Origin: Tsukamurella sp. PLM1
GTDB lineage: Bacteria; Actinomycetota; Actinomycetes; Mycobacteriales; Mycobacteriaceae
Direction of reading: 5' to 3'
Length of the DNA stretch: 64,000 nucleotides
Assembly: GCF_023168325.1 (NCBI RefSeq)
Contig: NZ_AP025688.1
Location: 2,480,001-2,544,000, forward strand
The notes beneath the pieces were generated by a model. That model was not told where the DNA came from. It searched no databases and saw only the letters and a list, made by a program, of their open reading frames with translations. Positions 5,102-57,284 of this stretch are shown one piece after another. The position numbers and the translations under genes were made by a program. Numbering within the stretch: the stretch's first letter is position 1; each line of letters begins with the position of its first letter.

Positions 5102-6322
5102 CTACCCGCCGCGCGCCTGCATGTACAGGTATACCGCCAGCCCGACGACGATCAGCGCGGCGAGCACGGCGAACGCGATCTTGATCGCGCTCCACGGCCG
5201 CTGGCCCTGGACTTCGCCGGTGATCCCGTTGACGAACACCTGGAACGGCTTGTCCGCGAAAGTCACGGTCAGCAGCCACACCGGCATCAGCAGGTAGAGG
5301 AAGTCGACCGACTGATACACCGGGTTCATACGGGTGATCCGCTGGGCGTCCCCGCCGATGTCTCGCCGGACCGTGTTCTCGACGATGTTCTCGATCCGGC
5401 CCCGCGCCTGCGCCTCGAAGACCTGGCCCGCGTCACCGTCGTAGGTCCGCGCGAGGTGCCCCGCGACGAACTCGGGCGTGTACGTCACCGCCTGCTCGGT
5501 GGGCCACGGTTCGAGCTCGCGCACGCGGTCGCCGTCGAGGCCCGTGTTCGCCGACTCGGTCAGCTGCCGGATGCTGTCGTGCACCCGCCCGCTCACGGGC
5601 CACCAATCGGTGTACGTCTCAACGTTGCCGTCGCGGTCGCGCCGGGTGCGGGTGGTACCGCGCGCCCCCGAGTAGTCGGTGGTGACCTCGGCGTCGTAGC
5701 TGTAGTACGACAGGTAGACGCTGGTGAACGAGCCCAGGACGCGGTACTTCTTGAACTCGCGCGGCGCGAACCAGCGGCTGTTGACCCAGGCCTCGATGTT
5801 CTGCCGCGCGCTGTCCTCGCCGACCCGAAGCGGCAGGATCCCGTCGATCGGCAGCCGCGCCGGCGCCACCTGCACGTCGGTGCGCTGGATCGGGGTGTTG
5901 CAGTACGGACACCGGACCGCCGTGAGGGTGCCGCTGAACAGCGTGTGGCCGCCGCAGCTCTGGCACACCACCTCGTGGTCGACCACCTGCACCTGCTCGG
6001 CGGATTGCGCCCGCGCCCGCAGCTCCGCCAGGGTCGGTCCCAGTGGGTGCGGGCTCAAGTGCTTGCTCGCGTCCAGCAGCACGGGGTAGGTGCTGCCGCA
6101 ACTGGGCGAACGCAGTTGTCCGACGGCCGGGTCCCACACCAACGCGTCGCCGCAGTTGGCGCACGGGTAGGTGCGGGTCTGCTCGGTCAGGTGCAGCATC
6201 TCGCGGTCGTTCGCCGACGGTGCCGCCGCCGGCGATCCGGCCAGCGGGCGCGGCTGTGGGAGCGGCGGTGGCTGCGGGAGCGGGGACGGCTGCGGCTGCT
6301 GCGGCGGCTGAGGTGCGGTCAC
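5102..6322 (-). CDS. Zinc-ribbon membrane protein (YdjG-like)
   Basis: 406 residues. It starts with a Pro/Gln-rich stretch, followed by two zinc knuckles: CANCG...SPSCG (about residues 55-80) and CQSCGG...CPYCNTP (about 125-155). A ~200-residue soluble domain follows (RWFAPREFKKY; VYLSYYSYDAEV), then a single TM helix near the C-terminus (IAFAVLAALIVVGLAVYLYM). This layout matches Bacillus YdjG, a TFIIB-like zinc-ribbon membrane protein working with the SPFH protein YdjI and a PspA protein in envelope stress. The GTG start is placed 2 bases after the stop of the SPFH gene; the longer frame upstream is antisense-like. Oddity: the first knuckle has Ser where a Cys is expected (SPSCG instead of CPSCG), so it may not bind zinc normally, or a base is misread. 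Confidence 0.8.
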   Translation of the reverse strand: MTAPQPPQQPQPSPLPQPPPLPQPRPLAGSPAAAPSANDREMLHLTEQTRTYPCANCGDALVWDPAVGQLRSPSCGSTYPVLLDASKHLSPHPLGPTLAELRARAQSAEQVQVVDHEVVCQSCGGHTLFSGTLTAVRCPYCNTPIQRTDVQVAPARLPIDGILPLRVGEDSARQNIEAWVNSRWFAPREFKKYRVLGSFTSVYLSYYSYDAEVTTDYSGARGTTRTRRDRDGNVETYTDWWPVSGRVHDSIRQLTESANTGLDGDRVRELEPWPTEQAVTYTPEFVAGHLARTYDGDAGQVFEAQARGRIENIVENTVRRDIGGDAQRITRMNPVYQSVDFLYLLMPVWLLTVTFADKPFQVFVNGITGEVQGQRPWSAIKIAFAVLAALIVVGLAVYLYMQARGG

Positions 6323-47912: not shown

Positions 47913-49442
47913 TCAGTTCACCGCCCGCTCACGGCCCTCCCAGAACGGGGCGCGGAGCACGAACTTCTGGATCTTGCCGGTGGCGGTGCGCGGCAGGGCG
48001 TCGACGAAGTCGACCCGCTTCGGGCACTTGTAGCCGGCCAGGTGCTCGCGGGTATGGGCGATCAGCTCCTCGGCGGTGACGCCGTCGGCGACCACGATCG
48101 CGGTGACGAGCTCGCCCCACTTCTCGTCGGGGATGCCGATCACGGCCACCTCGCGCACCGAGGGGTGGAGGTTGAGCGCGTCCTCGACCTCGATGGACGT
48201 CACGTTCTCGCCGCCGGAGATGATGACGTCCTTCTTCCGGTCCGCGATCGTGAGATAGCCGCCGGAGTAGGTACCGCGGTCGCCGGTGTGGAACCAGTCG
48301 CCCTCGAGCGCCGCGGCCGTCTCGGCCGGCTTGTTCCAGTACGCCTGCAGCGCGTGGTTGGTGCGGGCGAGGATCTCGCCGTCCTCGTCGATCGTCAGCT
48401 CCACGCCGAGCGCGGGCGTGCCGGCGCGGCCGAGGCGGCGCGCGATATCCATCGGATCGTCGCCGGCCCACTCGGCGCGCTCCCGGTTGACCGTGAGCAG
48501 CGGCGAGGTCTCGGTGAGACCGTAGATCTGGATGAACTCCCAGCCCAATTCGAACCGCACGCGATGGATCACGCGGGTGGGCGGCGGGGCGCCGGCCACG
48601 ATGATCCGCACCGTGCCCGCGCCCGGGATCGGGCCGTCCCACTCCGCGGCGGCGTCGAGCGCCGCGGTCACCACCGCGGGCGCCGCGCACATCACGGTGA
48701 CCCCGTGGTCGCGCACCCGGCGGAGGATCTCGGCACCGTCGACCTTCCGGAGGACCACGTGCTTGATCCCGATCCCCGTGGCGGCGAACGGCATTCCCCA
48801 CCCGTTCGCGTGGAACATGGGCAAGGTGTGCAGCAGCACGTCGTTGTCGGTGAGCGCCACGTGCATGGCGAACACGGTCGCGTTGAGCCACAGGTTCCGA
48901 TGCGTGAGCTGCACGCCCTTCGGCCGGGCGGTGGTACCTGAGGTGTAGTTGATGGTGGCGGTGGCGTTCTCGTCGCCCGCCCACGGCCGCGGGTTCGACG
49001 GTGCGCCGGCGGGCCCGAAGATCTGCTCGTCGTCGCGGCCGAGCACGAACACGCGCTTCGCCGTGACGGTCTCGGCGAGGTGCTCGACCTCCGGGTCGAG
49101 CAGCAGCACCTCGGCACCGGAATCCTCCACGATGTACTGCACCTCCGCCGGCGCGAGCCGGAAGTTGACCGGGACGAGGATCCGGCCCCAGCCGGAGACG
49201 CCGAAGAACGAGGTCAGCAGCCGTGCGGCGTTCTGCGAGACGATCGCGACGCGCCCGCCCACGGGGACGCCCAGTTCGTCGAGGCGAGCAGCCTGCCCGC
49301 GTGCCAGGGCCGCCATCTCGGCGTACGACTTCTCTCCCCACGACGGTGCCGGCTGGTCCGGCTCATCGACCATCCCGACACGGTCGGGGTAGACGATCTC
49401 GGCCCGGTTCAGGAAGTCTCGTACACCCAGATTCACGAACAT
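47913..49442 (-). CDS. Fatty acyl-CoA synthetase (FadD family)
   Basis: 509 residues. The AMP-binding motif is YTSGTTARPKG (P loop); QIYGLTETSPLL, GDWFHTGDRGTYSGGYLTIADRKKDVIISGGENV and RTATGKIQKFVLR complete the adenylate-forming enzyme, with the catalytic Lys of the last motif near the C-terminus. It activates fatty acids to acyl-CoA via acyl-AMP. The substrate chain length cannot be read from sequence. The ATG (MFVNLGVRDFL) is divergent from the MarR-GNAT gene. Confidence 0.93.
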   Translation of the reverse strand: MFVNLGVRDFLNRAEIVYPDRVGMVDEPDQPAPSWGEKSYAEMAALARGQAARLDELGVPVGGRVAIVSQNAARLLTSFFGVSGWGRILVPVNFRLAPAEVQYIVEDSGAEVLLLDPEVEHLAETVTAKRVFVLGRDDEQIFGPAGAPSNPRPWAGDENATATINYTSGTTARPKGVQLTHRNLWLNATVFAMHVALTDNDVLLHTLPMFHANGWGMPFAATGIGIKHVVLRKVDGAEILRRVRDHGVTVMCAAPAVVTAALDAAAEWDGPIPGAGTVRIIVAGAPPPTRVIHRVRFELGWEFIQIYGLTETSPLLTVNRERAEWAGDDPMDIARRLGRAGTPALGVELTIDEDGEILARTNHALQAYWNKPAETAAALEGDWFHTGDRGTYSGGYLTIADRKKDVIISGGENVTSIEVEDALNLHPSVREVAVIGIPDEKWGELVTAIVVADGVTAEELIAHTREHLAGYKCPKRVDFVDALPRTATGKIQKFVLRAPFWEGRERAVN

Positions 49443-49530
49443 GCGGCCAGGCTATTGCCGTCGCATCGGCTCGCGCGGCCGGTTCGATGAACCGGGCCGG
49501 GTTGCACACCGTTGCCGAAGTATCATTTAT

Positions 49531-49544
49531 CTGACTAGAGTCAG
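49531..49544. promoter_or_regulatory. Palindrome before the MarR-GNAT gene
   Basis: CTGACT-AG-AGTCAG is a perfect 6-2-6 palindrome in an A/T-rich stretch, 4 bases before the ATG. Position and shape suit autoregulation by the MarR half of the encoded protein. Confidence 0.65.
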
Positions 49545-49548
49545 AAAT

Positions 49549-50433
49549 ATGATTGAGCAGGCTGCACAGGTGCGACGGTTCAACCGGGCGGTCACGCAAC
49601 GGCTGGGCGTATTGCAGGACCGCTACCTCGCGCGGGATCGGCCGCTGGGCCAGGCGCGGCTGCTCTGGGAGATCGGCCGCGCCAACGGCGGCGTGGACGT
49701 GCGCGACCTGCGCACCCGCCTGGATCTCGACTCCGGGTATCTCAGCCGACTCCTGCGCGCGCTCGAGTCGGACGGGCTGGTCACCGTCGGGCAGGACGAC
49801 GGTGACGGCCGGGTCCGGACCGCGCGGGTGACGGCCGCGGGTGCGGCGGAGTACGCCGAACTCGAAACCCGCTCCGAGGACGCGGCGCACGCGCTGCTCG
49901 ATCCGCTCTCGGACGGGCAGCGGGAGCGGCTCGTCGTGGCAATGGCCGAGGTGGAGCGGTTGCTCGTCGCGTCGCTGGTGCGGGTCGAGGAGGCGGACGC
50001 GCAGTCGCCCGCCGCGCGGTTCGCGGCCCGGTCGTACTACGCGGAGCTCGCCGACCGATTTCCCGGCGGGTTCGACCCGGGGGTGGGCGGCGCGATCGGA
50101 GATCCGTCGATCACGCCGCCCGCGGGCCTGCTGCTCGTGGCGACGCTCCGCGAGGAGACCGTCGGCTGCGGCGCGCTCACCTTCCAGGACGGCGGCTTCG
50201 CCGAGGTCAAGCGGGTCTGGACAGCGCCCTCGGTGCGCGGCCTCGGTCTCGGCCGGCGGATCATGGCCGAACTGGAGGAGCGTGCCCGCGCCGCGGGCGT
50301 GCGAACCCTGCGGCTGGACACCAACGGCAACCTCACCGAGGCGATCGCGCTCTATCGGAAGCTCGGCTACCGCGAGATCGAGCGGTACAACGACAACCCG
50401 TACGCGCAGCACTGGTTCGCCAAGGATCTCTGA
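49549..50433 (+). CDS. MarR regulator fused to GNAT acetyltransferase
   Basis: 294 residues. Residues 1-140 are a MarR winged helix (FNRAVTQRLGVLQDRYLARDRPLGQARLLWEIGRANGGVDVRDLRTRLDLDSGYLSRLLRALESDGLVTVGQDDGDGR). Residues ~150-294 are a GNAT domain with the acetyl-CoA loop VRGLGLGRRIM and the end TEAIALYRKLGYREIERYNDNPYAQHWFAKDL. This MarR-GNAT fusion is a known architecture in actinobacteria and proteobacteria; whether the GNAT half acetylates a substrate or senses a ligand is not known. Confidence 0.92.
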   Translation: MIEQAAQVRRFNRAVTQRLGVLQDRYLARDRPLGQARLLWEIGRANGGVDVRDLRTRLDLDSGYLSRLLRALESDGLVTVGQDDGDGRVRTARVTAAGAAEYAELETRSEDAAHALLDPLSDGQRERLVVAMAEVERLLVASLVRVEEADAQSPAARFAARSYYAELADRFPGGFDPGVGGAIGDPSITPPAGLLLVATLREETVGCGALTFQDGGFAEVKRVWTAPSVRGLGLGRRIMAELEERARAAGVRTLRLDTNGNLTEAIALYRKLGYREIERYNDNPYAQHWFAKDL

Positions 50434-50662
50434 CGGCGCCCGGCCGCCAGGGGCGGTGTCCGGGAACCAGTCGATCACCGAGATTCAAATCCGCGACTCG
50501 CTCCCTCGGGTGGCGCAATAGCTGCACCACGACACGAAACGCCAGGTGACAAGGCCCGCGCGGGGGCACCGACCGGCGGAATGCGGCGCCCTCGCCGGTC
50601 CTTCGCCGAGGCACACATCCGACGACCGCCGAGACGGCCGGACCAGTTCCTATCGTTGCCGC

Positions 50663-51388
50663 ATGCCAGCGACCGACCGACCGATCCGCGCCGACTCCGC
50701 GCGCATCGTCGCCGACGTCCTGCGCCAGGCGATCCACGACGGCACCTACCGCGGGACCCTGCCCGGCGAGGAGGACCTCGGCGACCAGTTCTCCGTCTCC
50801 CGGGGCACCGTCCGCGAGGCCCTGTCGATCCTGCGCGCCGAGGGCTGGATCCGCCGCGGCCCGCGCGTGGGCACCGAGGTGATCGCCCGCACCGTCGACC
50901 ACGGACTCGACAGCCTCCGCGGCCTGCGCGAGACCCTCGCGCTGCACGGCGAGGTGCGCAACCGCGTACGTACCGCCGGCCGGCTCGTGCCGCCCCCGAT
51001 CGTCGCCGAGAAGCTCGGCATCCCGCGCGGCGCCGAGGCCGTGTACCTCGAGCGGCTGCGGTACCTCAACGACGAGCCCGTGAGCCTCGACCTGACCTAC
51101 CTCGTGGCCGACATCGGTGATCTCCTGCTGGAACAGGATCTCGAGAACGAGGACGTCTTCCCCCTCATCGAGGCCGTCACCGGGCACCGGCTGGGCAGCA
51201 GCGACTTCAGCCTCAGCGCGGCCGCGGCCGACCCGCACACCGCGGCGAACCTGGAGATCGCCACCGGCTCCCCGCTCCTGCTCTACGAGCGCCTCACCGG
51301 ACTCGACACCGGGCGTCCCGTGGACCTCGAGTACATCCGCATGCGATCCGACCGGATCACCCTGCGCGGCACCCTGCACCGCGACTGA
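50663..51388 (+). CDS. GntR-family regulator, HutC/UTRA type
   Basis: 241 residues. The N-terminal GntR helix-turn-helix (ARIVADVLRQAIHDGTYRGTLPGEEDLGDQFSVSRGTVREALSILRAEGWIRRGPRVGTEV) is followed by a UTRA ligand domain (GAEAVYLERLRYLNDEPVSLDLTYLV; GSPLLLYERLTGLDTGRPVDLEYIRMRSDRITL). It starts the operon of diferredoxin, ABC importer and flavoprotein and is likely its regulator. The 229 bases before it contain no palindrome that I could find; the operator may lie there in a diverged form. Confidence 0.9.
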   Translation: MPATDRPIRADSARIVADVLRQAIHDGTYRGTLPGEEDLGDQFSVSRGTVREALSILRAEGWIRRGPRVGTEVIARTVDHGLDSLRGLRETLALHGEVRNRVRTAGRLVPPPIVAEKLGIPRGAEAVYLERLRYLNDEPVSLDLTYLVADIGDLLLEQDLENEDVFPLIEAVTGHRLGSSDFSLSAAAADPHTAANLEIATGSPLLLYERLTGLDTGRPVDLEYIRMRSDRITLRGTLHRD

Positions 51389-51412
51389 CGTCCCGACACG
51401 GAGGAACACACC

Positions 51413-51640
51413 ATGGCACAGGTCGAACAGCGCGTCGACGTCCCCGTCACCATCGACGCCTCCCTCTGCATCGAGGGCTGCAACATCTGCATCGAGGCCT
51501 GCCCCCTCGACTCGCTCGCACTCGACCCGAGCACCAACCGCGCCCACATGTACGTCGACGAGTGCTGGTACTGCGGGCCGTGCGCCGCGCGCTGCCCGAC
51601 CGGCGCCGTCACCGTCAACATGCCCTACCTCCTGCGATAG
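51413..51640 (+). CDS. Two-[4Fe-4S] ferredoxin-like protein (AprB-like)
   Basis: 75 residues with two complete cysteine sets: C19-C23-C26-C30 followed by P, and C51-C54-C57-C61 followed by P. The first has the spacing CxxxCxxCxxxCP, and the end is ECWYCGPCAARCPTGAVTVNMPYLLR, close to the APS reductase beta subunit (CWECYSCVKxCP). It would pass electrons to or from the flavoprotein encoded four genes downstream. GGAGG precedes the ATG, and it lies 24 bases after the GntR gene. Confidence 0.92.
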   Translation: MAQVEQRVDVPVTIDASLCIEGCNICIEACPLDSLALDPSTNRAHMYVDECWYCGPCAARCPTGAVTVNMPYLLR

Positions 51641-51668
51641 CCCGCCCAGCCCACCGGAGAACCCAGCC

Positions 51669-53009
51669 ATGACACCACCCGACCTGCGCGCGGCCGCGCC
51701 GGCCGCCGCCGCAGCCCTCGCCTCCTGCTCCCTCGAGCCCGCAGCGGACGATTCCGTCCAGACCCTCGTCGTGGGCTACCAGTCCAAGACCATCAACACC
51801 GTCACCGCGGGAACCCTGCTGCGCGCCAAGGGCTTCCTGGAGAAGCGCCTCGCCGCCGTCGGGAACTTCCGCGTCGACTGGCAGGACTTCGACACCGGCG
51901 CGCCGATCACGAGCGGAATGCTCGCCGGCAAGATCCAGATCGGTTCGATGGGCGACTATCCGCTGCTGATCAACGGATCCCGCGCACAGTCCGGCGCCGA
52001 TACCGAGACCGTCATGCTGTCGGTCACCGGGTCGAGCGGCCGCGGGGCCCTGAACTCCGTCGTGGTCTCCCCCGGCTCGCCGGTGCGCGCCCTGGCGGAC
52101 CTGCGCGGCAAGCAAGTCTCCGCGTCGATCGGGTCCGCCGGGCACGGCACCCTCGTCGCCGCTTTGAGCCGCGCCGGCATCGCCACCGGCGACGTCACCG
52201 TGGTGAATCAGCAGCCGCAGGTCGGGGCGAGTGCGCTCGAATCCGGCCAGGTCCAGGCGCTGGCGCAGTTCGTCGCCTGGCCCGGCCTCCTCGTGCGCCA
52301 GGGCAAGGCGCGCCTGCTCTACGACGGCGGCGAGCTGAACACGCCCACCCTGCACGGCGTGGTCGCCAACGCGAAGTACACCGCGTCGCACCCGGACGTG
52401 GTCCGCGCCTTCCTCCAGGCGCAGCTCGACGCCACCGACTTCCAGCGCGAGCACCCGCTCGAGGCCGCGCAGGACGTCGCGAAGGGCAGCGGTCTCCCCG
52501 CCGAGGTCGTCTACCAGTACAACGGGCCGGGCGGCACCGACCCCAACCCGACGCTCACCGCCCCGCTCATCGGAGCACTCAAGGGCGACGTCGGGTACCT
52601 CCAGTCGATCGGGCAGTTCGGCGCACCCCTCGACCTGGATCGATTCGTCGACCCCGAACCCCTCGCGCAGGCCCAAGCCGCGCGCGGCGGATTCCAGTAC
52701 GACGCCGCCACGCCCGCACCGAAGCCGACCTTCGAGATCTGGTTCGACGGTGCCGACGCCACCGAGACCGTCCCCGACGCGACGACGCTCATCCGTACGC
52801 TCGCAGCGACCGACCGGAAGATCCGCGCCGCGTACGTCTCCGACGCGCTCACCGGAACCCGCTGGTACGCAGATCAATCGCTGTGGCTTCGCGACGGCGC
52901 GACCTTCGTGCCGTTCGCGGGTCCCGACGCCCGTGACCGCTATCTCGCGGAGCACCCCGGCGCGGTGCCCGTCGAGTACCGCGCCCTCCTCGAGGAGGCC
53001 CGACGGTGA
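51669..53009 (+). CDS. ABC substrate-binding lipoprotein with NosL-like C-terminal domain
   Basis: 446 residues. The short N-terminus ends in a lipobox LASC with C20, so it should be lipid-anchored. Residues ~30-340 form a periplasmic binding protein of the nitrate/sulfonate/taurine class (VGYQSKTINTVTAGTLLRAKGFLEKRL; IGSMGDYPLLINGSRAQ; ALADLRGKQVSASIGSAGHGTLVAAL). The last ~110 residues differ: FEIWFDGADATETVPDATTLIRTLAATDRKIRAAYVSDALTG...PFAGPDARDRYLAEHPGAVPVEY resembles NosL, a copper/cluster-handling accessory protein. The fusion is unusual. The stop overlaps the permease start. Confidence 0.85.
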   Translation: MTPPDLRAAAPAAAAALASCSLEPAADDSVQTLVVGYQSKTINTVTAGTLLRAKGFLEKRLAAVGNFRVDWQDFDTGAPITSGMLAGKIQIGSMGDYPLLINGSRAQSGADTETVMLSVTGSSGRGALNSVVVSPGSPVRALADLRGKQVSASIGSAGHGTLVAALSRAGIATGDVTVVNQQPQVGASALESGQVQALAQFVAWPGLLVRQGKARLLYDGGELNTPTLHGVVANAKYTASHPDVVRAFLQAQLDATDFQREHPLEAAQDVAKGSGLPAEVVYQYNGPGGTDPNPTLTAPLIGALKGDVGYLQSIGQFGAPLDLDRFVDPEPLAQAQAARGGFQYDAATPAPKPTFEIWFDGADATETVPDATTLIRTLAATDRKIRAAYVSDALTGTRWYADQSLWLRDGATFVPFAGPDARDRYLAEHPGAVPVEYRALLEEARR

Positions 53010-53844
53010 CCGCCCTCGACGCGCTCCCCACCGCGGCGCTCCGCCGGCCGGCCACGGCCCCACCCGCCGGGCTGTTCTCCCTGCCTGGCCGGTCCGGATC
53101 GCGGTGGTCGCCGCCGCGATCGGCGTCTGGCAGCTGCTCACCACCCAGCACGTGGCACTCGGTTGGATCCGATTCGACACGCTGCCCTCGGCGAGCGCCG
53201 TCGCCGGGCGGCTCGCTCAGTCGGTGCGCACCGGCGAGTACTGGCTGGACCTCGCACAGTCGCTGATCCGCATCGGCACGGGCTTCGCAGTCGCCGCGGT
53301 GTTCGGCATCGCCGCCGGCGTCGCGCTGGGCCGCTCCCGCGCCGCCGAGCTGACCGTCGGGACCCTGTTGGAGATCGCCCGTCCCATCCCCGCGATCGCG
53401 CTCGTTCCCGTCATGATCCTGCTGCTCCCGTCGTCCGAGGCGGGCATGGTCGCGATCACCGCGACGGCGGCGTTCTTCCCCATCGCGGTGAGCGTGCGGC
53501 ACGCCGTCCGCGCCCTGCCGACAGTGTGGGAGGACTCCGTACGCACCCAGGGCGGCGGCGACCTCGCGGTGCTGTGGCGGGTCGTGCTCCCCGGATCGCT
53601 CCCCGGCGTCTTCTCCGGGCTCTCCGTGGGTGTGGGCGTCGCGTGGATCTGCCTCGTCTCCGCCGAGATGATCTCCGGGCGCCTCGGCGTGGGCTACCGC
53701 ACGTGGCAGTCGTACACGCTCGTCGACTACCCCGCGGTCTTCGTCGGCATGCTGACGATCGGCGTGCTGGGCTTCCTCACCTCCGCCGTCATCGAACTGG
53801 CCGGCCGCCGGGTCACCCGCTGGCTGCCGCGGGGCGACCGATGA
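53006..53844 (+). CDS. ABC transporter permease, sulfonate/nitrate type (frame interrupted)
   Basis: About 279 residues, six helices. The GTG start gives [22 protein letters not shown]; the frame breaks near 53083 and continues [33 protein letters not shown]. The EAA loop that docks the ATPase is [30 protein letters not shown]. This is the SsuC/NrtB class. It is coupled to the binding-protein gene (GTGA) and to the ATPase gene (ATGA). Confidence 0.9.
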
Positions 53845-54593
53845 GCGCCCCGGCGGTCAGCCCGCCCGCGCAGCGCGACGGGCTGCGCCTGAAGCTCGAC
53901 GCCGTCGACCTCGGCTACCGGGGCGCGACCGCTGTGCGCGCGCTCGACCTCACCGTCGAGCCCGGCGAACGCCTGGTCCTGACGGGCCCGTCGGGCTGCG
54001 GCAAGTCGACGGTGCTGCGCGCCCTCGCCGGGCTGCTCCGTGCCGACGCCGGCGTCGTCCTCGCCGACGGTGCGCCCGTGACCGGCCCGGATCGCGACCG
54101 CGCCATGGTCTTCCAGGAGGATGCGCTGCTCCCGTGGCGCACCGTCGAGCGGAACGTCCGTCTCGCGCTACAGCTGCGAGGCGTGCCTCGGGACCGTCGG
54201 GCCGACGACGCGCGACTGTGGCTCGCCGAAGTGGGGCTGTCGGATTACGCGCGTCACCTCCCGCGCGAACTGTCGGGCGGAATGCGGCAGCGGGTCCAGC
54301 TTGCCCGTGGGCTCGCCGGTGCGCCCCGGGCCGTCCTGATGGACGAGCCCTTCGGCGCGCTCGACGCGCAGACCCGCGGTGACATGCAGCGGCTGCTGCT
54401 GCGCACCCTCGACGCCCACCCCGCCACCGTCGTCTTCGTGACCCACGACGTGGACGAGGCGATCCTGCTCGGCGACCGCATCGTCGTGCTGGGCCGCCGC
54501 GGCGAGCCCGTCCGGGCCTCGTTCGACGTGCGCCGCGCACCGTCGGCATCCGCCCTGCGGGCCGGAGTCGTCGACGCGCTCACCGAACGCTGA
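53841..54593 (+). CDS. ABC transporter ATP-binding protein, SsuB/NrtD type
   Basis: 250 residues. Walker [10 protein letters not shown] (residues 49-57), Q loop [17 protein letters not shown], signature [19 protein letters not shown], Walker [13 protein letters not shown] and the switch [15 protein letters not shown] are all present and intact. It powers uptake of the ligand bound by the preceding lipoprotein. Its class, nitrate/sulfonate/taurine, is set by the operon and overall similarity; the actual ligand is unknown. Confidence 0.93.
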
Positions 54594-54608
54594 ACTGTGA
54601 GGAGTCTC

Positions 54609-57284
54609 ATGAACATCCCCGAGATCGACGACCGCACCCGCCTGACCTGCGACGTACTGGTGATCGGCGGCGGGACAGCGGGCACCATGGCCGCGCTCAC
54701 CGCAGCCGAGGCCGGCGCCGACGTGCTCCTGCTCGACAAGTCGCACGTCCGGCACTCCGGCGCGCTGGCGATGGGCATGGACGGCGTGAACAACGCCGTC
54801 ATCCCGGGCAAGGCCGAACCCGAGGACTACGTCGCCGAGATCACCCGCGCCAACGACGGCATAGTGAACCAACGGACCGTGTATCAAACGGCGACAAGGG
54901 GTTTCGCGATGATCCAGCGGCTCGAGCGATACGGCGTGAAGTTCGAGAAGGACGAGTACGGCGAGTACGCCGTCCGCCGCGTGCACCGCTCGGGTTCGTA
55001 CGTACTGCCGATGCCCGAGGGCAAGGACGTGAAGAAGGCGCTGTACCGGGTACTGCGCCAGAAGAAGATGCGCGAACGGATCCGGATCGAGAACCGCGTG
55101 ATGCCGGTGCGGGTGCTGACCACCGGCAGCGGGTCCGACCGGCGGGCCGTGGGCGCGGTCGCGTTCAATACGCGGACAGGCGAGTTCATCGAGATCGCGG
55201 CCGGCGCGGTGGTGTTGGCGACGGGGCCCTGCGGCCGGCTGGGACTGCCCGCGTCCGGCTACCTCTACGGCACCTACGAGAACCCGGCGAACGCCGGCGA
55301 CGGCTACGCGATGGCCTTCCACGCGGGCGCGGAGCTCAGCGGCATCGAGTGCTTCCAGATCAACCCGCTGATCAAGGACTACAACGGACCGGCGTGCGCG
55401 TATGTGGCGAACCCGTTCGGCGGCTACCAGGTGAACGCCCAGGGCGAGCGGTTCGTGGACTCCGACTACTGGTCCGGGCAGATGATCGCCGAGGTGAAGT
55501 CCGAGATCGACTCGGCACGCGGGCCGATCTACCTCAAGGTCTCGCACCTGCCCGATGAGACGCTCGGCGAGCTGGAGTCGATCCTGCACACCACCGAGCG
55601 CCCCACGCGCGGCACCTTCCACGCGGGCCGCGGGCACGACTACCGCACGCACGACATCGAGATGCACGTGTCCGAGATCGGGCTGTGCGGTGGGCATTCC
55701 GCGTCCGGCGTGTGGGTGGACGAGAACGCGCGGACCACGGTGCCGGGGCTGTACGCGGCGGGCGACCTGGCGTGCGTGCCGCACAACTACATGATCGGCG
55801 CATTCGTCTTCGGCGAGCTGGCGGGCGCGGACGCGGTGCGGCACGCGCGGTCGGTGGCCCCGGCCCCCGAGGACCTCGGGGGGCAGATCGCCGCGGCGCA
55901 CGAGTTGATCTACGGCGCGGCCCGCAGGCCGACGGTCCGCCGCAGCCCCAGGTCGAGTACAAGCTGCGGCGCTTCGTGAACGACTACATCGCGCCGCCGA
56001 AGACGGCCCCGAAGCTGACCATCGCGATCGAGACCTTCGAGCGGATGCGCAGTGAGGTCGGCGGGTTGGGCGCGCGGACGCCGCACGAGCTGATGCGCTG
56101 CGTGGAGGTCTCGTTCATCCGGGACTGCGCCGAGATGGCGGCGAAGGCCTCGCTGGCGCGGACCGAATCCCGGTGGGGCCTCTACCACGATCGCCCGGAC
56201 CTGCCGGAACGCGACGACGAGCGGTGGGGACGGCACCTGAACCTGCGGCTCGGCGCCGACGGCGAGATGGAGTTCCTCACCCGGCCGGTGGCGCCGTACC
56301 TCGTGGCCGTGGACGAGTTCGACCACCTCCCGGGGACGTCGGCGGAGGTGGAAATCCTGGGCCCGCTGGCGGTCGCGCCCGTGGGCACCGTGCCCGCGGC
56401 CGCCGACCGGACCTCCGCCGTGCCGGAGGTCTCGCCGCGGCTACGGGAGCTGCTCGCGGTGGAGGAGCCATCGCTCGAGGAACTCTCTCGGTTCCTGTCC
56501 GATCCGGACACCACGGTGCGCCGCAGTGCGGTCGCCTTCCTCATCGAGGGCGCACCCGACGGATTCCTCGCTCCTGGTCACCGCGCTCGGTGACGCCGAC
56601 GCCGCGGTCCGGCGTACCGCCGCCGCCGGCCTGGTCGAGCTGGTGGAGGTGCTGCCGTCCGCGGATGGGCTGTCCGCGTATCTGGATTCGCCGGACGCCG
56701 TTGTGCGCGCCGCCGTGGGGAACCTGCTGCGCTCGCTGAAGGCGGGCTCCCGGCCCGGTTCGCCGCGCTGGCCGCGGATCCCGACCACCGCGTGCGGGTC
56801 GTCGGCGTCAGTGGCCTCGTCTCGCACGACGATTGGGCGACTCTGGTGCCCGCGACCAGGGATGAGAACCGCGAGGTCCGAATCGCTGCGGCTGTGGGCC
56901 TGGCGACCGTGGGCCGCGGCGGCGTCGACGCGGTGCGCTCCTTGACGGCCGACCACGACCCGCTGGTCCGCGCGGCAGCTTTGGAGGCGTTCGGCGCGCT
57001 GGGCGATGCGACCGACGTCGAGCTGCTCTCCGCCGGGCTCGCCGATCCGGCCTGGCAGGTGCGGCAGGGCGCGGCACGCGGCACCGTCGCCCTGGGGCCC
57101 GACGGTGCCGTGGCCGTCCTGGGACCGGCCCTGCGGGACCCGCACCTCGACGTGCGGAAGGCGGCCGTCGTCGCGCTCCGGACCTGGCCGTCGGTGCCTG
57201 CGGTCGCGGCTGCGCTCGAGTCCGCCCTCGACGATTCCGACGCGGACGTGCGCGCGCGCGCGGCTTGCCCTCGCGGTGAGGTGA
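54609..57284 (+). CDS. AprA-like FAD flavoprotein fused to HEAT repeats (four frame breaks)
   Basis: About 890 residues. GAGGAGTCTC precedes the ATG. Residues 1-~600 match fumarate-reductase/APS-reductase-type flavoproteins: CDVLVIGGGTAGTMAALTAAEAGADVLLLDKSHVRHSGALAMGMDG, the substrate region FHAGAELSGIECFQINPLI, and LCGGHSASGVWVDENARTTVPGLYAAGDLACVPHNYMIGAFVFGELAG (FAD end). The C-terminal ~300 residues are HEAT repeats (AVRRTAAAGLVELVEVLPSADGL; EVRIAAAVGLATVGRGG; WQVRQGAARGTVALGPDG; DVRKAAVVALRTWP). Frame breaks near 55930, 56570, 56755 and 57265 all restore sense when single bases are added or removed. It lies next to the AprB-like diferredoxin and a sulfonate-type importer. The substrate is unknown. 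Confidence 0.85.

Follow-up and report, generated by a model that had tools for sequence, protein, structure and literature searches.

The window analyzed here, a stretch of 64,000 nucleotides from Tsukamurella sp. PLM1 (contig NZ_AP025688.1), carries on its forward strand six genes for a GntR-family regulator, a ferredoxin, the three proteins of an ATP-binding cassette (ABC) importer, and an AprA-like flavoprotein that ends in HEAT repeats (Table 1). Gene order, strand and close spacing had been described in an earlier interpretation of the letters alone, here called the sequence-only reading, and are borne out by the coordinates (intergenic gaps of 24, 28, -4, -4 and 15 bases) and by Pfam matches for each of the six genes. 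We determined that (i) the operon is a real and widespread redox module with a natural gene fusion; (ii) its flavoprotein is apparently misnamed; and (iii) sulfonate sulfur is most likely what the module handles.

Table 1. The operon in the window (positions are those of the window; aa, amino acids; FAD, flavin adenine dinucleotide)
Feature	Position	Strand	Support
Regulator of the GntR family, UTRA ligand domain; first operon gene	50663..51388	+	Pfam GntR 7e-15, UTRA 2.1e-32
75-aa two-[4Fe-4S] ferredoxin, AprB/AsfB-like	51413..51640	+	Pfam Fer4_7 4e-9
Sulfonate-type substrate-binding protein, lipobox-like LASC, NosL-like C-terminal domain	51669..53009	+	SsuA_fam 6.1e-43, below cut-off; Pfam NMT1
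ABC permease (SsuC/TauC/NtrB type), one interruption	53006..53844	+	BPD_transp_1 1.1e-17 on 53086-53841
ABC ATPase (TauB/SsuB type)	53841..54593	+	ABC_tran 3.7e-30; taurine ATPase model 1.5e-62, below cut-off
AprA-like FAD domain, flavoprotein-HEAT gene piece 1	54609..55979, homology to ~55940	+	NF010374 5.9e-291 (model 1-437); FAD_binding_2 1.8e-35
Flavoprotein C-terminal part and linker, piece 2, other frame	55955..56593	+	Succ_DH_flav_C 3.5e-14; NF010374 model 446-654
HEAT-repeat part, pieces in further frames	56578..57284	+	HEAT_2 2.9e-26 on 56750-57283; NF010374 model 718-892
TATCGT box, 6 bases 5' of GntR ATG	50651..50656	+	conserved among same-genus upstream regions

Recurrence of the gene set

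The conserved gene set that the sequence-only reading proposed to look for in other genomes recurs in Actinomycetota, Pseudomonadota and Cyanobacteriota, beyond what chance would give. This was assessed over 143 loci that are not a random sample (the best 80 of at least 589 relatives found with a Cupriavidus query, 40 chosen Mycobacteriaceae, and others making up the rest) and that include near-copies (L036/L052 and L051/L210). Neighbors were counted as tblastn matches within 7.5 kb of the flavoprotein gene, so that some importer matches may stem from a neighboring cluster. By this count, a HEAT protein is present in 141 loci, the ferredoxin in 142, GntR in 132, a complete importer in 109 and DUF971 in 69; FdxA was matched in 11 loci and ferredoxin-NADP reductase in three, and the flavoprotein and HEAT part are fused in 37.

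In the window, the permease start is probably the GTG at 53006, the flavoprotein starts with the ATG at 54609, and the HEAT part ends near 57284. The translated ferredoxin has the motif C-x3-C-x2-C-x3-CP...C-x2-C-x2-C-x3-C, and the cysteine motif was found, in an x3 or x5 form, in all 142 of the relatives' ferredoxins scored.

The HEAT component and its fusion

With its presence beside the flavoprotein in 141 of the 143 loci, the HEAT protein is a third core component of the module. The triad of flavoprotein, ferredoxin and HEAT is present in 140 loci. The two loci counted as HEAT-less (L077 and L089) lie on contigs that end shortly downstream, before the place of the HEAT gene; the third locus without the full triad (L043, G030:C23) has the fused flavoprotein, the importer and the binding protein, and no ferredoxin or GntR match in its stretch. 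The Cupriavidus pinatubonensis locus opens with GntR and the flavoprotein (589 aa), continues with the ferredoxin and the three importer genes (binding protein, permease, ATPase), and has a separate HEAT protein last. Gene sets with a separate HEAT gene were also found in Nostoc, Mesorhizobium, Aquabacterium, Acidithiobacillus caldus (plasmid pTcM1), Methylobacterium, Leptolyngbya, Methylocystis and Sinorhizobium, as well as in named genome loci among the best 80 of at least 589 relatives. The proteobacterial and cyanobacterial loci examined encode HEAT separately, and most actinobacterial loci carry it in fused form. That it elsewhere accompanies the flavoprotein as a protein of its own makes the putative docking role proposed in the sequence-only reading likelier.

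Two curated families describe the flavoprotein: NF010374 (PRK13800), which is the fused flavoprotein-HEAT protein, and NF006131 (PRK08275), its unfused sister. Among Mycobacteriaceae, NF006131 matches in 103 of 351 genomes (104 matches), and for 98 of these matches the open frame is 879 aa or longer. Fusion does not follow from such a length alone, since one unfused gene sits in an 868-aa frame; loci were fetched for 35 of the 98, and all 35 are fused. The remaining six matches comprise five unfused genes (L244-L248) and the broken copy of the window. In the phylum Actinomycetota as a whole, a match was obtained in 16 of the 396 genomes and exceeded the cut-off in 12. The sequence-only reading had named, as grounds for abandoning it, a HEAT part that proved unfused in correctly sequenced orthologues; since 35 of 35 fetched Mycobacteriaceae loci with open frames carry the fusion, this objection fails and the HEAT part is truly fused in these orthologues.

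In a tree of 72 flavoprotein rows, window piece included, a branch supported at 100/98 separates the 38 fused rows from the rest, a second (100/96) the five unfused actinobacterial rows and a third (100/100) the 29 others; as the root is a midpoint root, the sister relationship of fused and unfused actinobacterial sequences holds only with a root outside these groups. In the five unfused actinobacterial loci, the HEAT gene lies immediately 3' of the flavoprotein gene, the stop codon of which overlaps a HEAT-frame start codon (ATGA in four loci, GTGA in one). Earlier HEAT starts are possible in these loci, and the overlapping start was chosen because the N-terminus then resembles the boundary in the fused proteins. 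We consider that the fusion probably arose once, and loss of the overlapping stop would be its simplest account.

One genome (G433) carries both an unfused (L247) and a fused (L249) operon and offers a natural comparison pair, and a minimal form comprising GntR, ferredoxin and fused flavoprotein, without the importer, is seen in L037 (G007) and L046 (G027). Two Cupriavidus flavoproteins had been flagged as containing a TGA, which lies 5' of the start in both and is not internal. Among open-licence papers, in the portions of text available, nothing relevant was found that joins HEAT, flavoprotein and sulfonate; one paper (PMC10947273) uses two of the terms apart from each other.

Frame breaks in the window copy

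The gene set given by the sequence-only reading is real, but the reading omitted frame changes in two of the genes. The permease has one, between 53006 and about 53110, and the flavoprotein-HEAT gene has at least three breaks. At least four frame changes over two genes might mean that the operon of this strain is a dead pseudogene cluster, which we regard as improbable. Relatives carry both the permease and the flavoprotein-HEAT gene unbroken. In all eight same-genus relatives with a match, including L034, the flavoprotein-HEAT gene is one open frame, and the pieces in the window retain 95, 89 and 81% identity to intact L034; the nearest named match of flavoprotein piece 1 is Tsukamurella tyrosinosolvens (94.8%). 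The GC content at third codon positions is 0.88-0.95 across the eight pieces measured. Furthermore, the completeness of the source genome (4.39 Mb) is 83.9%, compared with 93-100% in the listed genomes of the same genus. Since the pieces have stayed so similar to L034 and the genome is so incomplete, indel errors in the assembly are likelier than decay.

Upstream region

The stretch containing the TATCGT box (TATCGTTGCCGCATG) is identical in eight of ten aligned same-genus upstream regions, two of the eight probably being from one species; the remaining two have TATTCT, 7 bases before an ATG. We consider the box probably to be the -10 element of a leaderless operon promoter. Further upstream (49441-50433) lies a MarR-GNAT fusion gene, which adjoins the operon in seven of eight same-genus loci scanned (L031-L036 and L039; not L037).

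The flavoprotein: family and active-site residues

Piece 1 of the flavoprotein alone scores 662 bits with NF006131, above the cut-off of 587. NF010374 has a cut-off of 1196 bits for a protein of about 898 aa; the window pieces match it in order (Table 1) and were scored unjoined. When a profile of 11 flavoprotein members was compared with PDB chains, the closest were the alpha subunit of 3'-phosphoadenosine 5'-phosphosulfate (PAPS) reductase from Methanothermococcus thermolithotrophicus (8a8o, 1.5e-82), AprA (2fja/1jnr, about 4e-58) and SdhA (1nek, 2.7e-38). Residues were counted at 24 chosen positions over 145 rows: one for each of the 143 loci, one for the window piece and a duplicate row for C. 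pinatubonensis.

Several features would suit an assimilatory reductase of PAPS or of adenosine 5'-phosphosulfate (APS), of the AprAB or MtPAPSR type. The family aligns full-length with 8a8o, its closest solved sequence. It shares with AprAB (1jnr/2fja, 3gyx) a FAD subunit that is homologous full-length in two blocks, a two-[4Fe-4S] partner, and the equivalent of Asn74, which we take to lie near the flavin in AprA and which is Asn in 145 of 145 rows. A GH histidine is likewise invariant and aligned with PAPS reductase, whereas the stretch around AprA His398, presumably a functional residue, itself falls outside the alignment. However, the position of Arg265, which we take to be the catalytic, sulfate-binding arginine of AprA and which is Arg in 8a8o, 1jnr, 2fja and 3gyx, is occupied by Leu in all 145 rows, and that of Trp234 by Tyr. 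The family also has invariant cysteines of its own (Cys237, Cys252 and Cys349 in C. pinatubonensis numbering in 145 of 145 rows, Cys495 in all 144 rows that reach it), and differs from AprAB in having an importer and a HEAT component. Models for aprA, run on the window proteins, gave scores far under their cut-offs, and a nucleotide substrate formed inside the cell would make an importer pointless. On the replacement of Arg265, an APS/PAPS reductase was rejected, and we hold it to be very unlikely.

The product name given by NCBI to both NF010374 and NF006131, fumarate reductase/succinate dehydrogenase flavoprotein subunit, would agree with the FAD_binding_2 and Succ_DH_flav_C folds. These are the same families as the protein studied here, fused and unfused, yet the name is at odds with their active-site residues. 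The position of SdhA His45, presumably the covalent flavin link, is Gly and that of the HPT histidine is Asn, each throughout the 145 rows. When the family is aligned with 1nek, no Arg lies opposite the RGEGG arginine, which we take to be catalytic. Among the six operon genes there is neither a membrane anchor nor an SdhB-type subunit. The label was rejected on these residues; it is apparently a mislabel, and such an activity seems to us scarcely credible. The flavoprotein is AprA-like, yet by these residues neither an APS/PAPS reductase nor a fumarate reductase. The sequence-only reading, which had held that neither AprBA nor a sulfonate or nitrate importer fits this operon alone, was therefore right on this point.

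The importer and its NosL-like tail

The binding protein, permease and ATPase are of the SsuABC/TauABC types. By type, the binding protein comes nearest to those for sulfonates, albeit under the cut-off of that model (SsuA TIGR01728, 147.1 bits versus 163.5), and the closest solved proteins to a binding-protein profile are TauA (7.7e-27), SsuA (2e-24) and, in third place, a chain that bears the name 'nitrate transport protein' (1.1e-22). For the permease, the nitrate model NtrB (5.1e-28) and SsuC (3.9e-28) give equal fits. Although these two results could also suit a nitrogen-oxide substrate, we consider it less likely.

Unlike SsuABC and TauABC, the operon has a binding protein with an additional NosL-like C-terminal domain. 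This tail aligns across the family and is common to several phyla. NosL (PF05573) was matched in 10 of 18 binding proteins at a lenient E<=10 (best 1.3e-6), the window protein not being among the ten. Of seven sequences scanned singly, five match at E values of 0.00061-0.13 (one at 0.00061, four at 0.03-0.13) and one relative does not; these matches score 13-20.6 bits, all under the PF05573 gathering score of 24 bits. The NosL-like tail claimed in the sequence-only reading is thus weakly supported at the level of the family, but in the window protein Pfam gives no NosL match, either to the whole or to the isolated 99-aa tail. Two cysteines of the tail are both present in 25 of 110 binding proteins (L039, L043, L060, L062, L244-L248, L249-L252 and others) and both absent from the other 85, the window protein being without them. 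Since they are present or absent strictly together, they suggest a disulfide or metal pair.

Sulfur-related neighbors

YeiH, YeiE and TauE are linked to sulfite. A YeiH-type gene was found with a local profile in eight of the 143 loci, including all five unfused actinobacterial ones, and three of the eight were checked as PF03601. In a genome-wide count of PF03601 (E<=1e-20), the gene beside the operon is the only one in four of the five genomes with the unfused actinobacterial loci (G176, G318, G267 and G294), and one of two in the fifth (G433) and in G115; Leptolyngbya (L061) and G115 (L174) are cases separate from the unfused loci. TauE was matched in three of the 143 loci, all three being search seeds, and an SsuD-like gene strongly in three (L050, L062 and L055) and more weakly in four. 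TauD is present in 7 of 108 loci, and second sulfonate-importer genes adjoin some copies. In the genome of the window, an SsuD-like pair lies elsewhere, the better match scoring 420 bits, under the cut-off of 518. The importer type and some of these neighbors (YeiH, TauE, SsuD-like, TauD) suggest a role in the handling of sulfonate sulfur and sulfite.

Near a Paraburkholderia copy (L055), a stretch of 102 bp (5279-5380) is entered in PLSDB as a predicted GIM-2 beta-lactamase gene, a call that is probably spurious because the stretch is so short.

Comparison with the asf system and proposed function

The asfRABC genes of Pseudomonas putida S-313 comprise a substrate-binding protein, an ABC transporter, a reductase/ferredoxin pair and a LysR regulator (PMC4267179; this and the following statements on asf refer to the portions available of the papers cited). 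Transposon mutants in asfA lost the use of aromatic sulfonates and kept that of aliphatic ones (PMC4267179). A reductase-ferredoxin pair named AsfA/AsfB is known from Cupriavidus metallidurans CH34 (PMC2864759), and asf host genera include Rhodococcus and Williamsia (PMC9694294). The CH34 genes are Rmet_4334/5; among open-licence papers, Rmet_4334 was found in a single one, and Rmet_4335 and Rmet_4333 were found in none. As in asf, a reductase, a ferredoxin, a binding protein and an ABC importer are clustered in the window and in 109 of the 143 loci, and the hosts overlap (Cupriavidus, Burkholderia/Paraburkholderia, Variovorax, Pseudomonas and Rhizobiales). The 'undescribed pathway' of the sequence-only reading is accordingly not supported or at best open, since this composition matches the one published for asfRABC.

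We give an even chance to the view that the operon is a sulfur-scavenging module working like the asf (arylsulfonate) system. The lipoprotein-anchored binding protein with its NosL-like tail would pass a sulfonate, probably an aromatic or bulky one, to the SsuC/TauC-type permease and ATPase. Inside the cell, the AprA-like FAD protein and the two-[4Fe-4S] ferredoxin would form an electron-transfer complex that brings about desulfonation. This complex would either reduce the substrate itself or supply a monooxygenase, for example SsuD, with electrons, and the sulfur would be released as sulfite. Electrons might come from NADPH via ferredoxin-NADP reductase and FdxA. The HEAT repeats, whose co-occurrence and fusion are observed, may be a scaffold that holds the ferredoxin or donor to the flavoprotein, and GntR would regulate the operon, probably from the leaderless promoter.

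Several observations weigh against this proposal. The likeness to asf rests on published gene composition, not on the AsfA/AsfB sequences, and C. metallidurans is outside the best 80 loci. While asfR is of the LysR type, the window and 132 of the 143 loci have GntR, the regulator being the one asf feature that could be compared and did not agree; LysR (two query sequences) was matched within 7.5 kb in 15 of the 143 loci, and in the cyanobacterial copy L061 a divergent LysR-domain gene adjoins the flavoprotein gene. In a Cupriavidus search, NF006131 matched over its cut-off in 10 of 40 genomes, two of which (G102 and G103) were represented in the best 80 loci; of the eight newly fetched loci, seven have GntR and none has LysR adjoining the flavoprotein (by the same two queries). 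Weaker matches in Burkholderia and Pseudomonas were rejected after reading their translations, being a CoA-transferase-linked flavoprotein and SdhA. An asfA reverse PCR primer is named asfBtoA (PMC9694294), which suits adjacent flavoprotein and ferredoxin genes, whereas actinobacterial loci with the fusion have the ferredoxin first and mostly apart from the flavoprotein, a gene order unlike that of asf. The HEAT subunit and DUF971 are not mentioned in the available portions of three asf texts (PMC4267179, PMC2864759, PMC9694294), nor do these give a sequence or a family for AsfA. Organic-sulfur studies of R. qingshengii IGTS8 (PMC8557817) and Gordonia NB4-1Y (PMC7661421), in the portions available, and of G. 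terrae C-6 (PMC3868597), in its main text, mention no such flavoprotein; these strains were not checked for the operon.

The sulfur-related neighbors are, moreover, a minority, and the genome-wide control covers PF03601 alone. PF03601 genes lie only elsewhere in eight further genomes with the fused operon and in the genome of the window, in one case (G228) about 7 kb away, and are absent from G004, and the five unfused loci with YeiH neighbors form a single clade. The family is also found on plasmids of cyanobacteria, methanotrophs and Acidithiobacillus. All three importer proteins score under curated cut-offs, the permease fits the nitrate model as well as the sulfonate model, and 34 of the 143 loci lack a complete importer, so that import is not essential. 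These importer results, a host range broad enough to include cyanobacteria, and an active site unlike those of the solved relatives aligned would be expected if the operon were unrelated to asf and served the redox conversion of a different imported compound, with an importer that merely resembles sulfonate importers. Candidates would be a sulfinate, a sulfoxide, a thiosulfate-like compound or a small aliphatic sulfonate, and, less likely, a nitrogen oxo-compound. As TauA and SsuA are the closest solved binding proteins, and SsuD-like, TauD and second sulfonate-importer genes lie beside some copies, we find this alternative doubtful, and the asf-like module remains the reading that we prefer.

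We take the ferredoxin PP_0206 of P. putida KT2440 to be part of that strain's copy of the flavoprotein cluster. This ferredoxin is induced 7.5- to 8.5-fold by zinc, according to the available portion of PMC6066579.

A more novel, tentative and rather unlikely reading is that the module represents a separate class of enzymes, a soluble three-part complex of AprA-like flavoprotein, two-cluster ferredoxin and HEAT scaffold that would cleave imported sulfonates by electron transfer and not as a flavin monooxygenase. Its flavoprotein would be characterized by invariant cysteines and lack of the sulfate-binding arginine, and the class would span at least three phyla under the label of fumarate reductase, fused once in actinobacteria, with an importer the NosL-like tail of which may bind metal or form a redox-active disulfide.

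No organic sulfur source in soil is said to be more abundant than sulfonates, and asfA serves as the marker gene for sulfur release from them, with the asf reductase-ferredoxin pair alongside the ssu monooxygenase (PMC4267179). If the family is AsfAB, the operon adds to that system HEAT as a third component, a fusion that occurs naturally, and strictly conserved residues by which the enzyme can be tested. Otherwise, a redox system conserved in hundreds of genomes (at least 589 relatives) carries a doubtful name.

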